IMG/VR virus record: IMGVR_UViG_3300007735_000646
Coordinates: 1 to 33,948 of that record
Direction: 5' to 3' (one strand)
Length of the DNA: 33,948 nt
Origin: a virus
How positions within the stretch are numbered: the stretch's first letter is position 1; each line of letters starts with the position of its first letter. Position numbers and translations under genes: made by a program. A model generated the notes under the pieces. That model did not search any database. It was not told where the DNA came from and worked only from the letters and a program-made list of their open reading frames with translations. Of this stretch, positions 1-33,948 are shown in pieces.

Positions 1-127
1 GGGAAAATATGGCTAAGCGTAAATTGTCAATCAAGAGTACTGTAAACGACAATTCATTCAGTAATCTAAAATCGATTGATAATGCTAATGAACTAGTTAA
101 TGTTGATAGTCAATGGCTAACACTAGA
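1..127. repeat. 127-bp exact terminal repeat, left copy
   Basis: Bases 1-127 are identical to 33822-33948. The overlap falls inside a coding frame and continues it without a break, so the two ends belong together. A length of exactly 127 equals a common maximum assembler k-mer, so this is most simply the overlap left when a circular or circularly permuted genome is written out linearly. The non-redundant genome is 33,821 bp. Confidence 0.95.
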
Positions 128-1233: not shown

Positions 1234-1670
1234 TGGCTGAGAAAATAGAGAAGAAATCTAACGGCTCTTACCCCTCTGTTCGCGGATGGGGTGGAGTGCG
1301 TAATGTTGTCCAGCGTATTGAGCGTAGCCAAACCATTGTTGCTAATCGTGAAGCAGTTGCTTATAGCCTGCTCACAATGGCAAACACAAAGATTACTGAC
1401 ATCATGGAATGGGATGACTCTGGCAATGTGCGTGTCAAGGCAAGCAACAAGATTCCTGAACATGCCCTGCAATCTATTAAGAAGATCAGCCAGCGCGTCG
1501 ACAAAGAGGGCAATGCCACCATAGACATTGAACTGTTTGACAAAGTACAAGTACTGCGTATATTGGCCAAGGCCAGTGGCTTACTTGATACACCTGATGA
1601 CGGACAGAAACCTAGCGTGATTGGCATCAACATCCAAGCACCTGATGATGTGGAGCCAAAGTATGAGTAA
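1233..1670 (+). CDS. Terminase small subunit
   Basis: The 145-aa protein has the layout of phage small terminases. After a basic start there is a segment about residues 50-85, ITDIMEWDDSGNV then a helical KIPEHALQSIKKI stretch. A conserved C-terminal piece, IELFDKVQVLRILAKASGLL, follows at about residues 97-117. Small terminase recognises the packaging site on the phage DNA and presents it to the large subunit. The start ATG overlaps the previous stop (TGATG), and the next gene, terminase large, begins 7 bases before this one ends. Position and overlap support the call more strongly than any single motif. Confidence 0.75.
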   Translation: MAEKIEKKSNGSYPSVRGWGGVRNVVQRIERSQTIVANREAVAYSLLTMANTKITDIMEWDDSGNVRVKASNKIPEHALQSIKKISQRVDKEGNATIDIELFDKVQVLRILAKASGLLDTPDDGQKPSVIGINIQAPDDVEPKYE

Positions 1671-3201
1671 TGAATTTGCCCTGTCAAACTTAAACATTGA
1701 TCTACGCTCTAGCCCCATAGCCTTCAAGTTCTTGCAAAGCAATGCCTTTGTCACTGGCATCATGGGGCCGGTGGGTTCTGGTAAGTCATTTGTCAGTGCC
1801 GCCAAGATCATGGTCAAGGCTGTACAACAAAAGCCTAGCCCAGTAGACGGCATCCGCTATAGCCGGTTTGTCATTGTGCGTAACAGCTATCCTGAATTAA
1901 AAACAACCACGCTCAAAACTTGGGCAGACTTGTTTCCAGAGAACGTCTATGGACCAATCCTACACACGCCACCTATCACGCATCACATCAAACTTCCACC
2001 CAGAGGAGATGCGGCAGGGATTGACTGCGAAGTTATATTCTTAGCCCTTGATCAACCTAAAGATGTCCGCAAATTGCTTTCGCTTGAACTCACAGGCGCT
2101 TGGGTTAACGAAGCCAAGGAATTACCCAAAGCTGTCATCGACGGACTTACCCACCGCGTTGGCCGGTATCCAACAAAGCGTGATGGCGGAGCCACATGGC
2201 ACGGAATCTGGATGGACACTAACCCAATGGACGACGACCACTGGTGGCACAAAATCGCAGAGAAAGAACCGATAACAGGAAAGTATGCGTGGAAATTCTT
2301 TAAACAACCGGGCGGAGTCATCGAAGTCAGTGGCGATGAACTACCAGAAAATCCTGAAGCAAACGATCATATATTTGCGTCTGCCAAATGGTGGAAGATC
2401 AATCCTAAAGCAGAAAACATCAAGAATTTACCCGCTGGTTACTATCTCCAACAGTTGGCCGGCAAGACTCTAGACTGGATTCGGTGCTATGCAGAAGGCA
2501 AATACACCTTTGTGCAAGATGGCAAGTCCGTTTGGCCAGAGTACGACGACAACATCATGTCCGCTGAGATAGAACCAGACCCTAATCTGCCAATTCAAGT
2601 GGGTCTTGACTTCGGTTTGACCCCTGCCGCAGTGTTTGGCCAGCGCACAATGTCCGGCCAATGGCGTGTTTTGCATGAGATCGTCACCTTTGACATGGGA
2701 TTAGAGCGATTCGGGCAAACCCTAATGGCTGAATTACAGACTAGGTTTCCAAAATACGATGTCCGCATCTGGGGTGACCCCGCTGGTATGCAACGCGATG
2801 CCATTTATGAGACTACAGCGTTTGAGTATCTGCGCTCTTTGGGACTGAGGGCAGAGCCTACGGCTACCAATGACTTTAAAGCACGTAGAGAAGCGGCGGC
2901 AAGCCCAATGAATCGCATGGTGCAAGGCAAGCCGGGCCTGCTGGTCAACAAATCTTGCAAGTTATTACGCAAATCCCTCTCTGGCGGCTACCACTTTAAG
3001 CGCATTGCCGTAGGCGCTGGTCAAGAACGCTTCAGAGATACCCCAAATAAGAACGAACACTCGCACGTTGGTGACGCTTTTGGCTATTTGATGACTGGTG
3101 GTGGCGAATATCGTCAGTTAACTAGGGGGTCAACCAAGCCAAGCGGCCTGCCATTTATAGCCAGCACAATCACAAACTCAGATTTTGATGTCTTTGCCTA
3201 G
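1663..3201 (+). CDS. Terminase large subunit
   Basis: This is the ATPase/nuclease that packages DNA into the prohead. Using the ATG at 1663, which overlaps the small terminase stop, the product is 512 aa; the frame is open further upstream but those codons lie inside the small terminase gene. Walker A is GPVGSGKS at residues 35-42. A Walker-B-like strand with acidic end follows around LTGAWVNEAKEL. The C-terminal RNase-H-like nuclease shows the expected acidic residues in GLDFGLTP, IWGDPAG and HVGDAFGYL. The length is normal for the family. The gene closes by overlapping the next gene by 14 nt. Confidence 0.95.
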   Translation: MSNEFALSNLNIDLRSSPIAFKFLQSNAFVTGIMGPVGSGKSFVSAAKIMVKAVQQKPSPVDGIRYSRFVIVRNSYPELKTTTLKTWADLFPENVYGPILHTPPITHHIKLPPRGDAAGIDCEVIFLALDQPKDVRKLLSLELTGAWVNEAKELPKAVIDGLTHRVGRYPTKRDGGATWHGIWMDTNPMDDDHWWHKIAEKEPITGKYAWKFFKQPGGVIEVSGDELPENPEANDHIFASAKWWKINPKAENIKNLPAGYYLQQLAGKTLDWIRCYAEGKYTFVQDGKSVWPEYDDNIMSAEIEPDPNLPIQVGLDFGLTPAAVFGQRTMSGQWRVLHEIVTFDMGLERFGQTLMAELQTRFPKYDVRIWGDPAGMQRDAIYETTAFEYLRSLGLRAEPTATNDFKARREAAASPMNRMVQGKPGLLVNKSCKLLRKSLSGGYHFKRIAVGAGQERFRDTPNKNEHSHVGDAFGYLMTGGGEYRQLTRGSTKPSGLPFIASTITNSDFDVFA

Positions 3202-26765: not shown

Positions 26766-27350
26766 TCATGCGTTTTTCTCCTTCAAAAAAGATTGCACTA
26801 ACAAAATAAGATCATAAGTAGATGTCTTTTGCAATCTAGAACAAATCAATATTGCATCAACATCAGAATTGCTTAATGATTTAAATGAAGAATTATTGTT
26901 TTCAATATCTCCTTCGTACGTTTGTTCAACAAGGTTCTCAAACTCTACAAGTATCTCTTTGCTTGGCTTAGTTCTAGATGTTTCCCAATGGGCTATTGTT
27001 GATCTAAGTATTCCAAGCTTTTCAGCAACATCTTGCTGTCTAAGATTCTTACGCTTTCTTGCATAACGTATCCAATGAGACAAACTGTTTTGAGTTAAAT
27101 ACACATTTGGAATAAGCGATGAAGAATTCCTTAAATTTGACTCATTTCCAATTTCTAAACATTTTTGTTCAAAGAAATCACAAAGTCTATTTAATACACC
27201 AATTCGTGGATACGAAGCACCAGTCTCCCATCTTGCAACAGCTTGTTGACTAATGGAAATTGCATCAGCAACTTCCTGTTGGTTTAACCCAAGAGTAGTT
27301 CTCTCAAGTAATAATTGTTGTGCAAACTTATTCAACTTAGTCTTTTCCAA
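26766..27350 (-). CDS. Double-HTH (XRE/Cro-CI type) repressor
   Basis: The 194-aa protein carries two helix-turn-helix domains in tandem. The first is at residues about 9-64 (LGLNQQEVADAISISQQAVA then RWETG). The second is at about 90-143 (KNLRQQDVAEKLGILRSTIA then HWETS). One protein with two XRE units could bind a long palindrome as a monomer or dimer. It is the best candidate for the factor binding the three 21-bp operators. It has no internal methionine; TTG at 27350 is the likely start, coupled to the small ORF upstream. The gene is visibly more AT-rich than its neighbours, which suggests separate acquisition. Confidence 0.8.
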   Translation of the reverse strand: MEKTKLNKFAQQLLLERTTLGLNQQEVADAISISQQAVARWETGASYPRIGVLNRLCDFFEQKCLEIGNESNLRNSSSLIPNVYLTQNSLSHWIRYARKRKNLRQQDVAEKLGILRSTIAHWETSRTKPSKEILVEFENLVEQTYEGDIENNNSSFKSLSNSDVDAILICSRLQKTSTYDLILLVQSFLKEKNA

Positions 27351-27453
27351 GCAACCAAGTATGAAAATCTACAGGAACTTTACCAGCCACTTGGCACTGG
27401 TGGCAATACTCCCTGTAGCGTCTATCTAACTCTGCCCAATCACTGCTCTCCAT
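27337..27453 (-). CDS. 38-aa small ORF between ERF and repressor
   Basis: ATG at 27453 has AAGGAGA 8 nt upstream. The product is MESSDWAELDRRYREYCHQC followed by a short tail ending HTWLLGKD. It overlaps the end of ERF and the start of the repressor by 14 nt each, and so may couple translation of the repressor, which lacks its own ribosome site. The CHQC pair could bind metal. Confidence 0.5.
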   Translation of the reverse strand: MESSDWAELDRRYREYCHQCQVAGKVPVDFHTWLLGKD

Positions 27454-28189
27454 CTGATTCTCCTTCACCCAGTTGTGCGCCTAGTCGCTTTAAACGTAAT
27501 TGATAGTCAGATAACAAAGCAGTCATGTGATGGATTTCCAACTTCTTGGTTTGCTCTTCATTGGCTTCGCGCAGTTCACGTAACTTAGTCATCTTGGTAC
27601 GTGCCGCCATTGCTGACTTCTCTACTTTGTCACGCAACTCAAGCGTACCCTTCATGTAAGACTCTGATGAATCGTATATGCGTGGCTCCTTGTTGGGTAT
27701 GGCCATTGTGAAGACAGGACCACCAGCGGTAATTGTTTCTATAGTCTTTGGGCTTTCTACTTGCACAACAGAGCCGGGCTTTACGCCATCCAATGGGTTA
27801 ACTGCTGGCGCTAACTTGCGACTGGCCGCATTGCCATCGTCGTCGGACGGTGCGATGCCGCAGGCAGACATGAGGCTATACCTCCGCGCATAGGTCAAGG
27901 CACTAGCGTAGCCCTGTGGATCGTGTTTGATAGCAGGAAAGTGGACGATGCCGCACTCCAGCATTTCGCCAGACTCATGTACAAACACTGTCTCGCACAT
28001 GATGCCGTTATCGCAGTCGTAATTTTTTTGCAGTAAAAAGATGCCATTATCATTTAGTGCATCAATGACAGCTTCTATGCAGGCTGACAGATCAGCGTAC
28101 TTGCTACGGAAATGTGGGTTAGTAGATGTCTTGAGGGCTGGACCGAACTGACGTTGGGCTTTGACTAGTGCTGTGGCGATGGCTTTCAT
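27440..28189 (-). CDS. ERF-family single-strand annealing protein
   Basis: The 249-aa recombinase pairs complementary single strands for phage recombination. The ERF N-terminal domain shows KAQRQFGPALKTSTNPHFRS and then KYADLSACIEAVIDALNDNG. DPQGYASALTYARRYSLMSA is the typical core motif at about residues 92-111. The C-terminal part is a charged coiled coil. The ATG at 28189 is preferred because AAGGAA lies before it and it overlaps the exonuclease stop (ATGA); the frame is open further upstream. It works with YqaJ and RusA. Confidence 0.9.
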   Translation of the reverse strand: MKAIATALVKAQRQFGPALKTSTNPHFRSKYADLSACIEAVIDALNDNGIFLLQKNYDCDNGIMCETVFVHESGEMLECGIVHFPAIKHDPQGYASALTYARRYSLMSACGIAPSDDDGNAASRKLAPAVNPLDGVKPGSVVQVESPKTIETITAGGPVFTMAIPNKEPRIYDSSESYMKGTLELRDKVEKSAMAARTKMTKLRELREANEEQTKKLEIHHMTALLSDYQLRLKRLGAQLGEGESDGEQ

Positions 28190-29139
28190 TTGGCTTCCTT
28201 GATTGTTAGAGTTGACTGACGAATTGAATATGCTTCTTTTGCTGGTGTAATCTTTTCTGGCTGTGCTTTGAAGTGACGCATTGGCCATTTGATCTGCCAC
28301 TTGCCACATTTGGCCGTACTGAACTCTTGCATTTGCGTCTTGAGTTCTGCTTCTTTGGCTGATATTTCCTCTTCCATTCGCTTGATCTCTGCTTTAAGAG
28401 CGACGATTGCACTGGCTATGCCTTCAGCATGGTTGCCAAGATCGATGTCTTCTTCTTTAGCGTTTGGCCAGACGCGATCAGCATCTTTGCTGTCTGCTGG
28501 TGGATACCATGCTGTCTCACCAGTTTGGCGGAAGTTCTCTAAGCGTGATTCAAAGTCAATGGCCGCATTCCAGATGGTGTCCATCGTTTGCTCATGTGGT
28601 GTGAATAAGTAGATGCGTAGTTCCACGCCTGAATACAGACAGCCAATGGCCGCCCACTTCAGGCCGGTACACATCATCACGCCTTGTACTTGGATAGGAC
28701 CACGGTACAGGGGTAGGACTTCTTCAGGAGCCATCTTGGTTAACTTGGATTCAAGTACACCTTGGCCGGTGAGAACTATCTCGTCAGCACCTACTACATA
28801 AATACCTATCGAGGGATCATGTTTGATAGTTAAACCTAATAATGGTGCTGTTGCAATGGCATCTGCGCTGGCGGCCAGTGGTAATTGAGGATGCTTATAA
28901 GCTTCTTCAGGCATGACGTAGTTGTCTAACCCAAGGCGCTTGGCCATCTCCTTGATGATGGATTCCTCTAATGCGTTGCCCCAGTTGGCGGCTTCGCCTG
29001 CTTCTGTACGGGCATACTCACCTTGGATAGACTTCATGCAGAAGTTCAAGGTGTCATTGGCGCTTGCATATCTGGAGTGACCCAAAATGGCAGGCAATTG
29101 GGAGCAAGACAGCATTGTGTCTGAGGTAAGTTTAGGCAT
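28186..29139 (-). CDS. YqaJ-family viral exonuclease
   Basis: The 317-aa protein resects double-strand ends to give the single strands used by ERF. The nuclease core shows the acidic residues in GNALEESIIKE (E58), LAASADAIA (D93) and the E-x-K motif in GVLESKLTK (E130, K132). The C-terminal 90 residues form a coiled coil (KAEIKRMEEEISAKEAELKT), a usual tail of the family. It is the second gene of the minus-strand early operon and overlaps both neighbours. Confidence 0.92.
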   Translation of the reverse strand: MPKLTSDTMLSCSQLPAILGHSRYASANDTLNFCMKSIQGEYARTEAGEAANWGNALEESIIKEMAKRLGLDNYVMPEEAYKHPQLPLAASADAIATAPLLGLTIKHDPSIGIYVVGADEIVLTGQGVLESKLTKMAPEEVLPLYRGPIQVQGVMMCTGLKWAAIGCLYSGVELRIYLFTPHEQTMDTIWNAAIDFESRLENFRQTGETAWYPPADSKDADRVWPNAKEEDIDLGNHAEGIASAIVALKAEIKRMEEEISAKEAELKTQMQEFSTAKCGKWQIKWPMRHFKAQPEKITPAKEAYSIRQSTLTIKEAK

Positions 29140-29476: not shown

Positions 29477-29497
29477 ATGATTTCACGGTGAAAGCAT
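29477..29497. promoter_or_regulatory. 21-bp palindromic operator, copy 2 (leftward promoter)
   Basis: ATGATTTCAC-G-GTGAAAGCAT is a palindrome with 9 of 10 matches between arms. It overlaps the last two bases of the leftward -10 box and covers the start point. A protein bound here would block the leftward early operon. Confidence 0.75.
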
Positions 29498-29524
29498 TAT
29501 AGGACATATAAATTTAATTGTCCG
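29496..29524 (-). promoter_or_regulatory. Leftward early promoter
   Basis: On the minus strand, -35 CGGACA (29519-29524) and a perfect -10 TATAAT (29496-29501) are 17 bp apart. It drives the winged-helix, YqaJ, ERF and repressor genes. The -35 box overlaps the -35 of the rightward promoter on the other strand. Confidence 0.75.
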
Positions 29525-29547: not shown

Positions 29548-29566
29548 GCTTTCATAGTGATAGCAT
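29546..29566. promoter_or_regulatory. 21-bp palindromic operator, copy 3 (rightward promoter)
   Basis: ATGCTTTCAT-A-GTGATAGCAT matches the copies at 774 and 29477. It starts in the last two bases of the rightward -10 box, mirroring the leftward arrangement. One repressor could shut both early operons. Confidence 0.75.
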
Positions 29567-29578
29567 TACAATGTCTGC

Positions 29579-29924: not shown

Positions 29925-30157
29925 ATATTGAACAAGCGCATAGGTGGCTTGATAAGGTCAAGGAAGGATATAGATTGCCTCAACCTATGATTGATGAAGC
30001 ATTGTCTTTAACAGGGGATTTAGATGACATTCATGGTGAACTTTGTGGTGGATGGAGTGCCTGTTGGCAAGGGCAGGCCAAGATTCACCAGCAGGGGGCC
30101 ATTTGTGCGGACGTACACCCCCAAGAAAACGATGGACTACGAGGATGTAGTACGTGA
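29921..30157 (+). CDS. Small hypothetical protein overlapping RusA
   Basis: The 78-aa ORF has a plausible N-terminal half (MNIEQAHRWLDKVKEGYRLP then IDEALSLTGDL). Its last 44 residues are read out of frame over the start of RusA, an overlap of 134 nt. The N-terminal half looks like a genuine protein; the C-terminal part looks like unselected sequence, with many Cys, Gly and Gln. It is coupled by ATGA to the gene before it. Confidence 0.5.
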   Translation: MNIEQAHRWLDKVKEGYRLPQPMIDEALSLTGDLDDIHGELCGGWSACWQGQAKIHQQGAICADVHPQENDGLRGCST

Positions 30158-30452
30158 GACAGCCAGACTTGCGATGGGTGATACAAAGCCACTAGAAACG
30201 GCTGTATCAGTCTATCTCTACATACGTATGCCAATACCAGCAAGTTACTCTAAGGCGCGTACTAGAAACTGTTTAATGGGTGTGGAGAAGCATACAAAGA
30301 AGCCCGATTGGGACAACGTAGCCAAGGCAATAACCGATGCTTTAAACGGCATTGTTTACGTAGATGATTGTCAGATAGTCAGCGCGCACATCAAGAAGTT
30401 ATACGGTGCTGATCCATGTGTTGATGTGTTGGTCAAGGAGGAACTTGAATGA
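30024..30452 (+). CDS. rusA: RusA-family Holliday junction resolvase
   Basis: The 142-aa endonuclease cuts four-way DNA junctions. The strand VVDGVPVGKGRPRFT and the acidic active-site region KKPDWDNVAKAITDALNGIVYVDD are diagnostic: the Asp residues of DWDN and DALNG, with the VYVDD pair, form the metal site. The C-terminus has a short charged helix. It serves recombination and perhaps resolves concatemers before packaging. The next small ORF is coupled by ATGA. Confidence 0.92.
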   Translation: MTFMVNFVVDGVPVGKGRPRFTSRGPFVRTYTPKKTMDYEDVVRETARLAMGDTKPLETAVSVYLYIRMPIPASYSKARTRNCLMGVEKHTKKPDWDNVAKAITDALNGIVYVDDCQIVSAHIKKLYGADPCVDVLVKEELE

Positions 30453-31357: not shown

Positions 31358-31374
31358 TTGGAGGATTTTCCAGC
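31331..31374 (+). repeat. 14-bp direct repeat at end of phage operon
   Basis: GAGGATTTTCCAGC occurs at 31331-31344 and 31361-31374, 30 bp apart. The first copy is in the last codons of the preceding gene, the second just after its stop. It may be the scar of a small duplication at the module boundary. Confidence 0.75.
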
Positions 31375-31498
31375 GCCCGACACCAGCGGATTGCTATATC
31401 TATGCTTTGTAGCGCGAAGGTATTACATTGTAGTGATTTTGTGTTATCGATGCAAAAACCGGTAACGAATAGCCGCGGCCAGTGTTAAACCGCGGGTT

Positions 31499-31510
31499 AT
31501 AGCCGGCTAT
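31499..31510. promoter_or_regulatory. 12-bp perfect palindrome
   Basis: ATAGCCGGCTAT is a perfect palindrome in the leader of the Rep module, a possible binding site for the KorA-like regulator. Confidence 0.4.
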
Positions 31511-31576
31511 CTGGCCGGCGTTTAGTGCGTAGCGTTGGTGCTTTTTATGCATAGTCGTCGATTGTCAACAACTAAA

Positions 31577-31590
31577 TAGAAATATTTCTA
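31577..31590. promoter_or_regulatory. 14-bp perfect palindrome, candidate operator
   Basis: TAGAAATATTTCTA lies 110 bp before the first gene of the module. Its length and position are suited to a KorA-type autoregulatory operator, though it differs from the RK2 KorA site. Confidence 0.45.
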
Positions 31591-31700
31591 AAAACTAGGG
31601 TTTGTACCTATTACATAACGTAGTTAACGGCGTTATATTTTGTGCATCGGTTAGAAATAATCGATGTTTTTACAACCTACCTACTTATGGAGAGTAAACA

Positions 31701-32024
31701 ATGTTTAACACAAACCAAAACATCGGCCCCTATACATCGGTATCGTGCGAAATAAAACGCACGTTTAAAGGCCACGGCGAATATCGCATAGCTATCTACG
31801 GCGCTTACAACGCCTACGGCTTAATCGGGCCAGAAAAAAACGGGTTAGTAGTTCTCGACGAAACTAAACGCGCCGTTTTATGCGACGAAATAGAAAAAGC
31901 CGATAGCGGTTATTTTGGGCCTACCAAAGGCCAGTATGAAGCTATGGCGGCGTTTAAGGCTATGAAGTGGCCAGAGTTTAGAGAATTTATTAATACGCAT
32001 AACCGTGCGCGTTACTCTATCTAA
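31701..32024 (+). CDS. Hypothetical protein, first gene of the Rep module
   Basis: The 107-aa product begins MFNTNQNIGPYTSVSCEIKR and has a strand-rich first half and helical second half (KGQYEAMAAFKAMKWPEFRE). GGAGAG lies upstream of the ATG. No family recognised. Codon choice (CGC, GGC, TTA) matches the rest of the module. Confidence 0.65.
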   Translation: MFNTNQNIGPYTSVSCEIKRTFKGHGEYRIAIYGAYNAYGLIGPEKNGLVVLDETKRAVLCDEIEKADSGYFGPTKGQYEAMAAFKAMKWPEFREFINTHNRARYSI

Positions 32025-32034
32025 GGGGCTAAAC

Positions 32035-32112
32035 ATGAAAACCCAACTATTTGATAAAGTAATCTACGTTCTAGGTTTTGTTGCGTTAATCGTAATCTGG
32101 CTAACCGCATAA
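32035..32112 (+). CDS. 25-aa membrane peptide
   Basis: The ORF MKTQLFDKVIYVLGFVALIV continues into IWLTA and is almost one membrane helix. AAGGGG lies 6 nt before the ATG, the same site used by its neighbours, which argues it is translated. Function unknown. Confidence 0.5.
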   Translation: MKTQLFDKVIYVLGFVALIVIWLTA

Positions 32113-32122
32113 GGGGTAAAAC

Positions 32123-32881
32123 ATGAAAAACCCCTACAAAACTATCATTAAACAACGCGGTTTAACCTATAAAACTATCTTAGGTGAATCAAGTACTAAA
32201 ACCGTAAAGGGAGAGAAAATAGGATATCTAACGGGTATCGTATACCTTAAACCCGATAACGTTATATGCTCTATGGCTACGTTGGCCGGTTGTATGGCCG
32301 GTTGTTTAGAATCGGCCGGCCGCGGCGCGTTTAATAGCGTACAAAACGCTAGAGTAGCTAAAACTAGGTTTTTCTATGATCATAGAGAATCGTTCATGCT
32401 ATCTCTGGCGGCCGATGTATGGGCGTTAGCTCGACGCGCTAAACGTTTAGGTTTTAACCCTTTGGTGCGGCCCAACGGTACATCGGACATACCATACGAA
32501 AACATTATTATCGTTGACAATAAAAACCTATTCCAATTATTTCCCGATGTACAATTTTATGACTATACAAAACATCCGGCGCGTAATCTGGCCGGTAAAA
32601 CCGCGGGTAACTACGATTTAACGTATAGTTTTAGTGCATTAACGCCTAAACCTATAAGCATAAAGGGTTTAAGTAACCCGCATAACGCACGTACCGCGGT
32701 TGTATTTCAAAAACGCGCCGATATACCTACAACGTTTAGAACGTGGCCGGTTGTCGACGGCGACGATACCGATGTACGACATATAGAGCCGCGCGGCGTT
32801 GTTGTAGCCTTATACGCTAAGGGTAAAGCTAAACGCGATACCGGCGGGTTTGTACAGATTAAAGGGGTTAACTATGCGTAA
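32123..32881 (+). CDS. GP88-family protein
   Basis: The 252-aa protein matches the 'gene product 88' family known from phages and plasmids. KGEKIGYLTGIVYLKP leads to a cysteine cluster (C49, C57, C61) in ICSMATLAGCMAGCLESAGRG, the family signature. ARVAKTRFF and RPNGTSDIPYENI follow, also conserved. The cysteines may hold a metal or cluster; the biochemical function is unknown. Ten of its 18 leucines use TTA. AAGGGG lies 6 nt before the ATG, and its stop overlaps the next gene by 8 nt. Confidence 0.85.
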   Translation: MKNPYKTIIKQRGLTYKTILGESSTKTVKGEKIGYLTGIVYLKPDNVICSMATLAGCMAGCLESAGRGAFNSVQNARVAKTRFFYDHRESFMLSLAADVWALARRAKRLGFNPLVRPNGTSDIPYENIIIVDNKNLFQLFPDVQFYDYTKHPARNLAGKTAGNYDLTYSFSALTPKPISIKGLSNPHNARTAVVFQKRADIPTTFRTWPVVDGDDTDVRHIEPRGVVVALYAKGKAKRDTGGFVQIKGVNYA

Positions 32882-33110
32882 AACAATGATAGCTAAATAC
32901 CGCGGCCGTTGTGCCGATAGCGGCGCGACGATTAACCCCGGCGACGAAATAATCTACGATACAGTGGCCAGAAAATCGTATCTAACGGAGCCGGGCGATA
33001 GCCGCGTAGAGTTTATAACCCTAAACAATCAAGGGACCTATAAAACGTTTACCCGTAACGCCGCCGGCCGATGCATCGACGCGCCGTGTTGCGGTTGTTG
33101 CACTATCTAA
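32874..33110 (+). CDS. Small zinc-binding-like protein
   Basis: The 78-aa product starts MRKTMIAKYRGRCADSGATI. The pattern K-Y-x-G-x-C-x-x-x-G-x-x-I-x-x-G-D is that of small zinc finger-like domains where one Cys is replaced. The end has a cluster, CIDAPCCGCCTI, with four further cysteines. AAGGGG lies 6 nt before this ATG, so I choose it over the in-frame start at 32850. Confidence 0.65.
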   Translation: MRKTMIAKYRGRCADSGATINPGDEIIYDTVARKSYLTEPGDSRVEFITLNNQGTYKTFTRNAAGRCIDAPCCGCCTI

Positions 33111-33121
33111 GGGGCTAAACA

Positions 33122-33334
33122 ATGGATAAATATCAGTTTATAGCCTTAGTTGAGCTACTACGCGCTAAACCAGATAGCGTAGCCATACGCGGCGCGTATC
33201 TGGTTTTAATCGACGGCTTTACACAAACCAGAGCCGCGACAATTTTAGGTTGTCGACAATCAACGGTTAGTCATGCGGTACGGAGAATTAAAAACGCCCA
33301 ACGGTTGGCCAACAACGGAGCCGCACGATACTAG
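33122..33334 (+). CDS. KorA/TrfB-like transcriptional regulator
   Basis: The 70-aa protein resembles the DNA-binding domain of KorA (TrfB) of IncP plasmids. IRGAYLVLIDGFTQTRAATI followed by LGCRQSTVSHAVRRI (about residues 22-56) corresponds to KorA's ARGVLVDGKPQ... helix-turn-helix. It lacks the KorA dimerisation tail. KorA represses plasmid replication and maintenance genes, so a role in controlling the adjacent Rep-like ORF is likely. AAGGGG lies 7 nt before the ATG. A terminator follows. Confidence 0.75.
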   Translation: MDKYQFIALVELLRAKPDSVAIRGAYLVLIDGFTQTRAATILGCRQSTVSHAVRRIKNAQRLANNGAARY

Positions 33335-33354
33335 AGTTAAATAACCCATTAACG

Positions 33355-33380
33355 GCCGCGCTATCATGCGCGGCTTTTTT
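33355..33380 (+). terminator. Rho-independent terminator after KorA-like gene
   Basis: GCCGCGC and GCGCGGC form a perfect 7-bp stem with a TATCAT loop, followed by six T. The ORF at 33398 starts only 18 bp further on, so it needs its own start signal or readthrough. Confidence 0.85.
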
Positions 33381-33397
33381 ATTGCAAAATAGCATTA

Positions 33398-33948
33398 ATG
33401 GAAATAAAACTACCTAAAAAACCTAGAGTTATACAAAAAGAGCAACAACCGGATCAACGACAATTTAGCGTTGTACCGATACGCGCTATTACCGATAGAA
33501 CGTTAACCGGTATGGAATTACGGGTTTTAATGATGTTTTGTAGCTACACAAACCGCGGCGGGTTAACTTGGGTTAGTGTGGCCAGAATAGGAAAGCACTT
33601 AAACGTTAGCACGGTTAGAGCCGCGTTTTTAACCCGTGCGTTGATAGCTAAAGGCTACATAAGGGTTTTATATAAAGGGTTCGCCGGAGAACGCGCACAA
33701 ACCCGCCAGATTATCTACAACGATACGCTATCAGTTGACGAAATAGTTAGCGCAACCGGAGAGCCGGCGCCGTATATGATAGCCAACAATGAAAAAAGCT
33801 TTATAAATCAACAACATAAAGGGGAAAATATGGCTAAGCGTAAATTGTCAATCAAGAGTACTGTAAACGACAATTCATTCAGTAATCTAAAATCGATTGA
33901 TAATGCTAATGAACTAGTTAATGTTGATAGTCAATGGCTAACACTAGA
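33398..33948 (+). CDS. 5' part of winged-helix replication-initiator-like protein (continues at 1-230)
   Basis: The ORF begins with ATG GAA ATA and stays open to the window end, then through 1-230 of the circle, giving 217 aa. Residues about 22-110 look like a winged helix: RQFSVVPIRAITDRTLTGME, VLMMFCSYTNRGGLTWVSVA, then IGKHLNVSTVRAAFLTRALI and GYIRVLYKGFAGERAQTRQI. This layout is common in replication proteins of small plasmids and some phages, but a plain regulator cannot be excluded. No Shine-Dalgarno is visible before 33398. Residue 145 is an ATG with a good AAGGGG, pointing to a second, shorter product. If it is the initiator, it is the only replication starter in this genome. Confidence 0.6.
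   Translation, partial: MEIKLPKKPRVIQKEQQPDQRQFSVVPIRAITDRTLTGMELRVLMMFCSYTNRGGLTWVSVARIGKHLNVSTVRAAFLTRALIAKGYIRVLYKGFAGERAQTRQIIYNDTLSVDEIVSATGEPAPYMIANNEKSFINQQHKGENMAKRKLSIKSTVNDNSFSNLKSIDNANELVNVDSQWLTL
33822..33948. repeat. 127-bp exact terminal repeat, right copy
   Basis: Identical to 1-127. It lies within the winged-helix ORF and allows the sequence to be closed into a circle of 33,821 bp. Confidence 0.95.

Follow-up and report, generated by a model that had tools for sequence, protein, structure and literature searches.

The nearest isolate to the virus analysed here is the Methylophilales phage MEP301 (MW452941), a 34.8-kb podovirus whose genome carries an initiator-like gene, a gap, and then the genes for a single-strand DNA-binding protein (SSB), the small and large terminase subunits (TerS and TerL), portal, capsid, and tail (PMC8024684). 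Its authors found no gene for a DNA or RNA polymerase (PMC8024684). Further points of comparison are KorA/TrfB of the IncP plasmid RK2, the replication initiators resembling lambda O or DnaD, the packaging RNA (pRNA) of phage phi29, and podovirus-type phage genes on Acinetobacter plasmids. We analysed a stretch of 33,948 bases (the window; positions 1-33,948 of IMG/VR record IMGVR_UViG_3300007735_000646), in which the gene order is that of MEP301. An initial annotation had taken the segment from 31358 onwards for a plasmid-type KorA/Rep module fused to a podovirus of unusual design. In our analysis, positions 31358-33948 together with 1-230 probably form an exchangeable cassette for early genes and replication initiation in a MEP301-type podovirus and do not serve plasmid maintenance, and the noncoding DNA behind them very probably contains a real structured RNA that is absent from Rfam.

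Judged by its sequence, the genome belongs with the MEP301-type podoviruses. The genes for TerL, portal, capsid, and the tail tubular proteins have homologues in the same order at 60-75% identity (TerL 74%, portal 75%, and capsid 69% identical to MEP301), and the design is thus a described one. On the other hand, neither GP88 nor the KorA-fold gene of the window was found in MEP301, the initiator-like proteins of the two are only 36% identical, and MEP301 has a partial serine-recombinase-like gene. The window begins and ends with the same 127 bases (1-127 = 33822-33948), so its map closes as a circle of 33,821 bp. The repeat reads as an assembler overlap of one k-mer of a common size, and a genome of this length would then be either circular or linear and circularly permuted.

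The cassette begins with noncoding DNA (31358-31700) and continues, on the plus strand, with genes for a 107-aa protein of no assigned function (31701-32024; 96% identical in the related contig L083), a GP88-family protein (32123-32881), a 78-aa companion of GP88 (32874-33110; phrog_2656 and phrog_5664), a 70-aa KorA-fold helix-turn-helix regulator (33122-33334), and a winged-helix initiator-like protein (33398 through the closure to 230). All of these open reading frames, which lie in the intervals named by the initial annotation, were confirmed. The protein encoded at 32123-32881 is without doubt GP88 (PF17338, 121.9 bits; cut-off 24.4). GP88 is a common phage gene, found in 265 phage records versus 1 plasmid, and its companion was present in 51 of 80 GP88 loci. 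A near-identical 25-bp repeat at 32011-32035 and 33097-33121 spans in each case a stop codon and the next ribosome-binding site. Between the regulator and the initiator-like gene lies a predicted Rho-independent terminator (33354-33385, plus strand), an 8-pair stem followed by a T-run.

Gene order was compared with L083 and L085, related viral contigs from other records. Both keep, at high identity, the succession of lysis end, RusA, cassette, initiator-like gene, SSB, TerS, TerL, and portal; in L085, this comparison revealed neither the 107-aa gene nor GP88. Because the order is kept across 31358-31700 and 231-960, both intervals are natural. The two had been suspected as junctions; each runs without a break in L083 and L085, and the DNA of 231-960 is noncoding and conserved.

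The cassette stands out by its composition. From approximately 31.4 to 33.8 kb, at equal GC content, CpG, TpA, and CpA occur at 1.8, 1.4, and 0.6 of expectation, compared with CpG and TpA of at most 0.92 and CpA of at least 1.10 in 2-kb stretches of the rest of the genome. The signature covers noncoding DNA too (CpG 1.61 and TpA 1.31 in 31358-31700), declines within the initiator-like gene, and was never attained when the coding DNA was synonymously recoded 200 times from the codon usage of the genome itself. Furthermore, GCTG/CAGC is absent from the segment, against about 24 occurrences expected. The signature is common to L082 and L083, and was not seen in L085, L084, L007, or 78 other GP88 loci. 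We infer from these sequence properties that the segment is acquired DNA, which would have arrived as one piece from a source with a different genome signature. An assembly chimera, in which a podovirus had been joined to a fragment of a plasmid, would also account for how abruptly the k-mer signature changes near 31.4 kb and 33.8 kb. The joins, the genes, and the signature nevertheless recur in contigs of other records (L082 and L083), and the contiguous gene order of L083 and L085, which span both boundaries, rules such a chimera out for practical purposes. The claim of a fused module has substance in the foreign composition and in the placing of a KorA-fold regulator directly before an initiator-like gene, but its plasmid-type nature is unsupported.

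The initiator-like gene runs across the closure of the map. Its N-terminal part occupies 33398-33948 and its C-terminal part 1-230, resuming at 128-230 once the 127-bp overlap is joined, to give an intact reading frame of 217 aa on the plus strand. The homologue in L083 lies in one uninterrupted piece inside its contig (75% identity). Window and L083 are approximately 96% alike in the N-terminal part versus approximately 55% in the C-terminal part, as counted by reading of the alignment, so the halves of the gene have apparently been exchanged independently, and a recombination point may lie near the linker. The window protein matches HTH_36 (26.2 bits, cut-off 25) and phrog_270 (E = 1.3e-4), and its counterpart in the relative L061 matches phrog_428 (4e-10), O-like proteins (1e-7), and DnaD-like loaders. 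In a structure model of the L083 homologue, a winged helix is followed by a long helix, and a disordered linker leads to a small C-terminal helical domain; the fold matches are to MarR-type winged helices and the DnaD N-domain. This arrangement, together with a neighbourhood of recombination and SSB genes, resembles that of lambda O-like and DnaD-like initiators.

The initial annotation had called this protein Rep-like. The winged helix was borne out, and the weak profile matches are to phage initiators; identity with a plasmid Rep was rejected, as no match was found in 72,556 plasmids at E ≤ 0.01. On Pfam RPA the protein scored 14.1 bits, below the cut-off of 27. A gene of this kind occupies the equivalent place before SSB-TerS-TerL in MEP301 and other relatives, and precedes TerS-TerL in a chromosomally integrated relative. 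The winged-helix domain may bind the phage origin, and the small C-terminal helical domain may recruit host replication proteins, as lambda O or DnaD-type proteins do. An in-frame internal Shine-Dalgarno and ATG (33816-33836, repeated at 1-15; ATG at 9-11, plus strand, preceded by aaagggg) is conserved, with an AAGG-type Shine-Dalgarno, in relatives down to 36% identity. It suggests a second, C-terminal product, a short form that could tune initiation. No Shine-Dalgarno precedes the first ATG (region 33378-33400), and in L084, L085, and L086 a -10-like sequence ends near the ATG; the mRNA may be leaderless.

The initial annotation had called the 70-aa regulator KorA/TrfB-like. An AlphaFold2 model (pLDDT 94) gave KorA for all of the top 14 Foldseek matches at approximately 34% identity, and the likeness to KorA/TrfB of RK2 extends over the fold of the DNA-binding domain (TM about 0.7, with 34% identity in 59 aligned columns). 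When seven relatives were combined into a profile, it retrieved KorA chains from the PDB only at E values of 0.005-0.016, and plasmid proteins annotated as 'TrfB-related DNA-binding protein' are 45% identical. In both sequence and model, then, the resemblance to KorA is real at the level of the DNA-binding domain. The Pfam assignment is another matter: KORA scored 17.8 bits, below its cut-off of 26.7 and lower than HTH_23 (20.3) and Cro (19.5), and membership was rejected, with only the fold resemblance retained. Of the seven relatives, six gave matches to KORA that are for the most part weak (best about 1e-6), and a relative from the record of L007 passes the cut-off at 27.9 bits. The protein stops at residue 70, compared with about 101 aa in PDB KorA chains, and thus lacks the C-terminal dimerisation domain; for this reason we do not file it as KorA. 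Unlike KorA/TrfB of RK2, it does not lie beside plasmid replication or partition genes, and in the one plasmid inspected the homologue is flanked by genes for hypothetical proteins and by a mercury operon instead of replication genes. No match was found among sequenced phages, while 7 of the 19 records searched have a KorA-fold protein, which directly precedes the initiator-like gene where seen in detail. It may repress the cassette promoters.

Several points weigh against this picture of an acquired initiation cassette. The initiator profile scores of the window protein are weak (E about 1e-4), the mean pLDDT of the initiator-like model is 68, and no origin iterons were identified. Initiator activity is predicted from sequence and model, repression of the cassette promoters by the KorA-fold protein is putative, and no donor of the foreign segment was found among the 78 other GP88 loci compared.

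Could the module instead keep the phage as an extrachromosomal prophage, as the initial annotation proposed? The circular map, the KorA fold and plasmid homologues of the regulator, the lack of a detected integrase, and a repressor with operators that suggest a temperate circuit would all suit a phage-plasmid. Podovirus-type phage genes do exist on circular Acinetobacter plasmids of 37-44 kb, which are candidate phage-plasmids; their portal is only about 25% identical, and the one such plasmid inspected, pZS-1, is rich in insertion sequences and encodes a toxin-antitoxin pair, features that were not seen in the window. Among the hallmarks of phage-plasmids, the window has the structural gene set, but neither a plasmid-type initiator nor ParA, which was found in 0 of 18 records (the window genome and 17 related ones). 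The phage is represented by a virus record, and none of the cell genomes turned out to contain it. In addition, the initiator-like protein has no match among plasmids, GP88 is a phage gene, one relative is integrated in a chromosome, and a circular assembly is equally expected from a circularly permuted or terminally redundant packaged genome. Phage-plasmid status is therefore unsupported, and we regard extrachromosomal persistence through this module as improbable.

The repressor of the virus bears on its lifestyle. A cI-like protein with two HTH_3 domains is encoded at 26766-27350 on the minus strand (PF01381, 79.2 bits in 2 stretches; phrog_8). The palindrome TTTCACNGTGAWAGCATT occurs in three copies (coordinates on the plus strand), two between divergent early genes (29481-29498, overlapping a TATAAT on the minus strand, and 29550-29567, preceding the rightward early genes) and one, TTTCACTGTGATAGCATT, at 778-795 upstream of the SSB-terminase genes. 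The operator search gave 8 matches versus 0.13 expected, and the operators are conserved in L083 and L085. They are probable sites of the double-HTH protein, which would be the ligand of all three, and taken together the sequences indicate a repressor circuit. Temperate phages such as the lambdoid phages are typically laid out in this way, with a repressor and three operators at early promoters. This layout argues against a strictly lytic phage in which the repressor and the KorA-fold protein merely time early and late genes. Such a lifestyle would agree with the lack of a tyrosine integrase in the window genome and 17 related virus records, and with the isolation of MEP301 as an infecting phage in which, according to its authors, a functional serine recombinase may be absent (PMC8024684). 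We give it somewhat less than an even chance.

A temperate alternative is suggested by a related podovirus prophage of 35 kb, found on a 186-kb contig of a Hyphomicrobiales metagenome-assembled genome (L190/L206-L209; contig positions 63502-98844). Its capsid is 70% identical to that of the window, host genes, MazG among them, lie on either side of it, and each of its ends carries a 16-bp repeat. Of 60 genomes from that host family, 52 contain the empty site reconstructed from its flanks, TCGCATAA-N6-TTATGGAAC. A genome usually has the site once, often with a single copy on each large contig, and the spacer varies; the reversed pattern gave 0 matches. From this distribution the chromosomal site would be dif. 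The virus of the window might accordingly be imagined to integrate at the host dif through host XerC/XerD, with no need for an integrase of its own, a mode that the dif-like site of the bounded prophage and the repressor and operators of the window would favour. The integrated relative, however, encodes its own tyrosine recombinase (PF00589, 113 bits), and a dif-like attP was sought in the window genome and rejected, as the best score of 16 falls inside the shuffled range (null maxima 15-17). Integration of this kind is unlikely, if less so than persistence as a plasmid.

Downstream of the cassette, covariation defines a structured, pseudoknotted RNA on the plus strand (about 535-745, core 567-740). 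Its helices pair 606-610 with 622-626, 628-631 with 672-675, 691-694 with 714-717, 697-699 with 709-711, and 719-722 with 732-735, and a pseudoknot joining 582-586 to 702-706 was added to this set. RNAalifold reported 13 covarying pairs in 19 sequences. For four named helices in 17 sequences, 99.7% of cells pair, compared with 27-47% in slid controls, and changes on both sides occur at 12 of 20 pairs; the G-U pairs, which make up 9 of 17 at one position, speak for the plus strand. In 41 sequences, whose alignment was fitted to the covariance model and is thus biased towards the modelled structure, pairing holds in 93.3% of cells, and covariation is seen at 18 of 20 pairs. The pseudoknot pairs in all 17 rows of a MAFFT alignment, and in a wider set its true partners reach a mean of 4.37 versus a maximum of 4.0 across 2000 shuffles. 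A closing helix, TGGCA/TGCCA, was broken in several relatives and was dropped. Single-sequence folding of 500-810 was no better than that of shuffles (z = 0.48), so the case for the RNA is made by covariation alone.

None of the 4227 models of Rfam 15 matched the 567-740 element; RF04325 and RF04048 (E = 0.06-0.4), far under their gathering scores, were set aside as chance. No tRNA or tmRNA was found in 231-960. A distant DNA search of sequenced phages returned no match to the RNA, and the structure model was needed for distant relatives, MEP301 being found at 37.5 bits. The description of MEP301 makes no reference to any noncoding RNA (PMC8024684), and a search of the open-access literature found no terminase-linked RNA of this kind. 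The pseudoknotted RNA of the window thus appears to be undescribed.

The covariance model finds the RNA in MEP301 and also in GP88-linked phages that, in the loci examined, have no homologue of the window capsid protein. Among terminase-anchored loci it gave 28 hits in 80 loci with the TerL type of the window and 34 hits in 80 loci with a second TerL type. The two types share no BLASTP similarity (E = 0.36), and both match terminase profiles. All 62 matches lie upstream of TerL and on its strand, a number that does not stand for independent events, as the loci are short and in many cases truncated, and near-identical viruses contribute some of them. In L070, at 2971-3133, the RNA lies on the opposite strand and adjoins the 3' end of TerL, the sole exception to the usual placement. 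No initiator-like gene was seen near the RNA in the second phage type, which makes a role in replication less likely. Its position suggests that it takes part in packaging or regulates the terminase operon. That it does so directly, as a packaging RNA, a transcribed packaging signal, or an antitermination signal, is a tentative proposal that we hold to be possible but short of probable. The likeness to phi29 pRNA, a compact structured phage RNA linked to packaging, is by analogy only and consists here in the position beside terminase genes; the window RNA has no Rfam match, and the phages that carry it have TerS/TerL terminases.

The full virion and lysis set of the initial annotation was recovered, with portal, capsid, two tail tubular proteins, internal virion proteins, endolysin, and spanin. 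Following the RNA on the plus strand are the genes for SSB (961-1233; phrog_7364, 3.4e-9), TerS (1233-1670; 62% identical to MEP301 gp49), and TerL (1621-3201; phrog_2, 1.4e-21; 74% identical to MEP301 gp45). Recombination genes comprise an ERF single-strand annealing protein (27440-28309, minus strand; phrog_2324, 1.6e-39), a RecE/YqaJ-type exonuclease (28186-29139, minus strand; phrog_434, 3.1e-29), and a RusA Holliday-junction resolvase (30024-30452, plus strand; PF05866, 113 bits).

These results correct the claim of a phage-plasmid and offer in its place a clean case of cassette exchange, with a putative recombination point near the linker of the initiator gene. They also point to a dif-like chromosomal site as a home for a tailed phage of the MEP301-type lineage. 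Furthermore, an RNA tied to terminase genes across unrelated phages makes a packaging role of RNA outside phi29 directly testable. If that role is true, the element would be a second kind of packaging-linked RNA besides phi29 pRNA, common to phages with unrelated large terminases.

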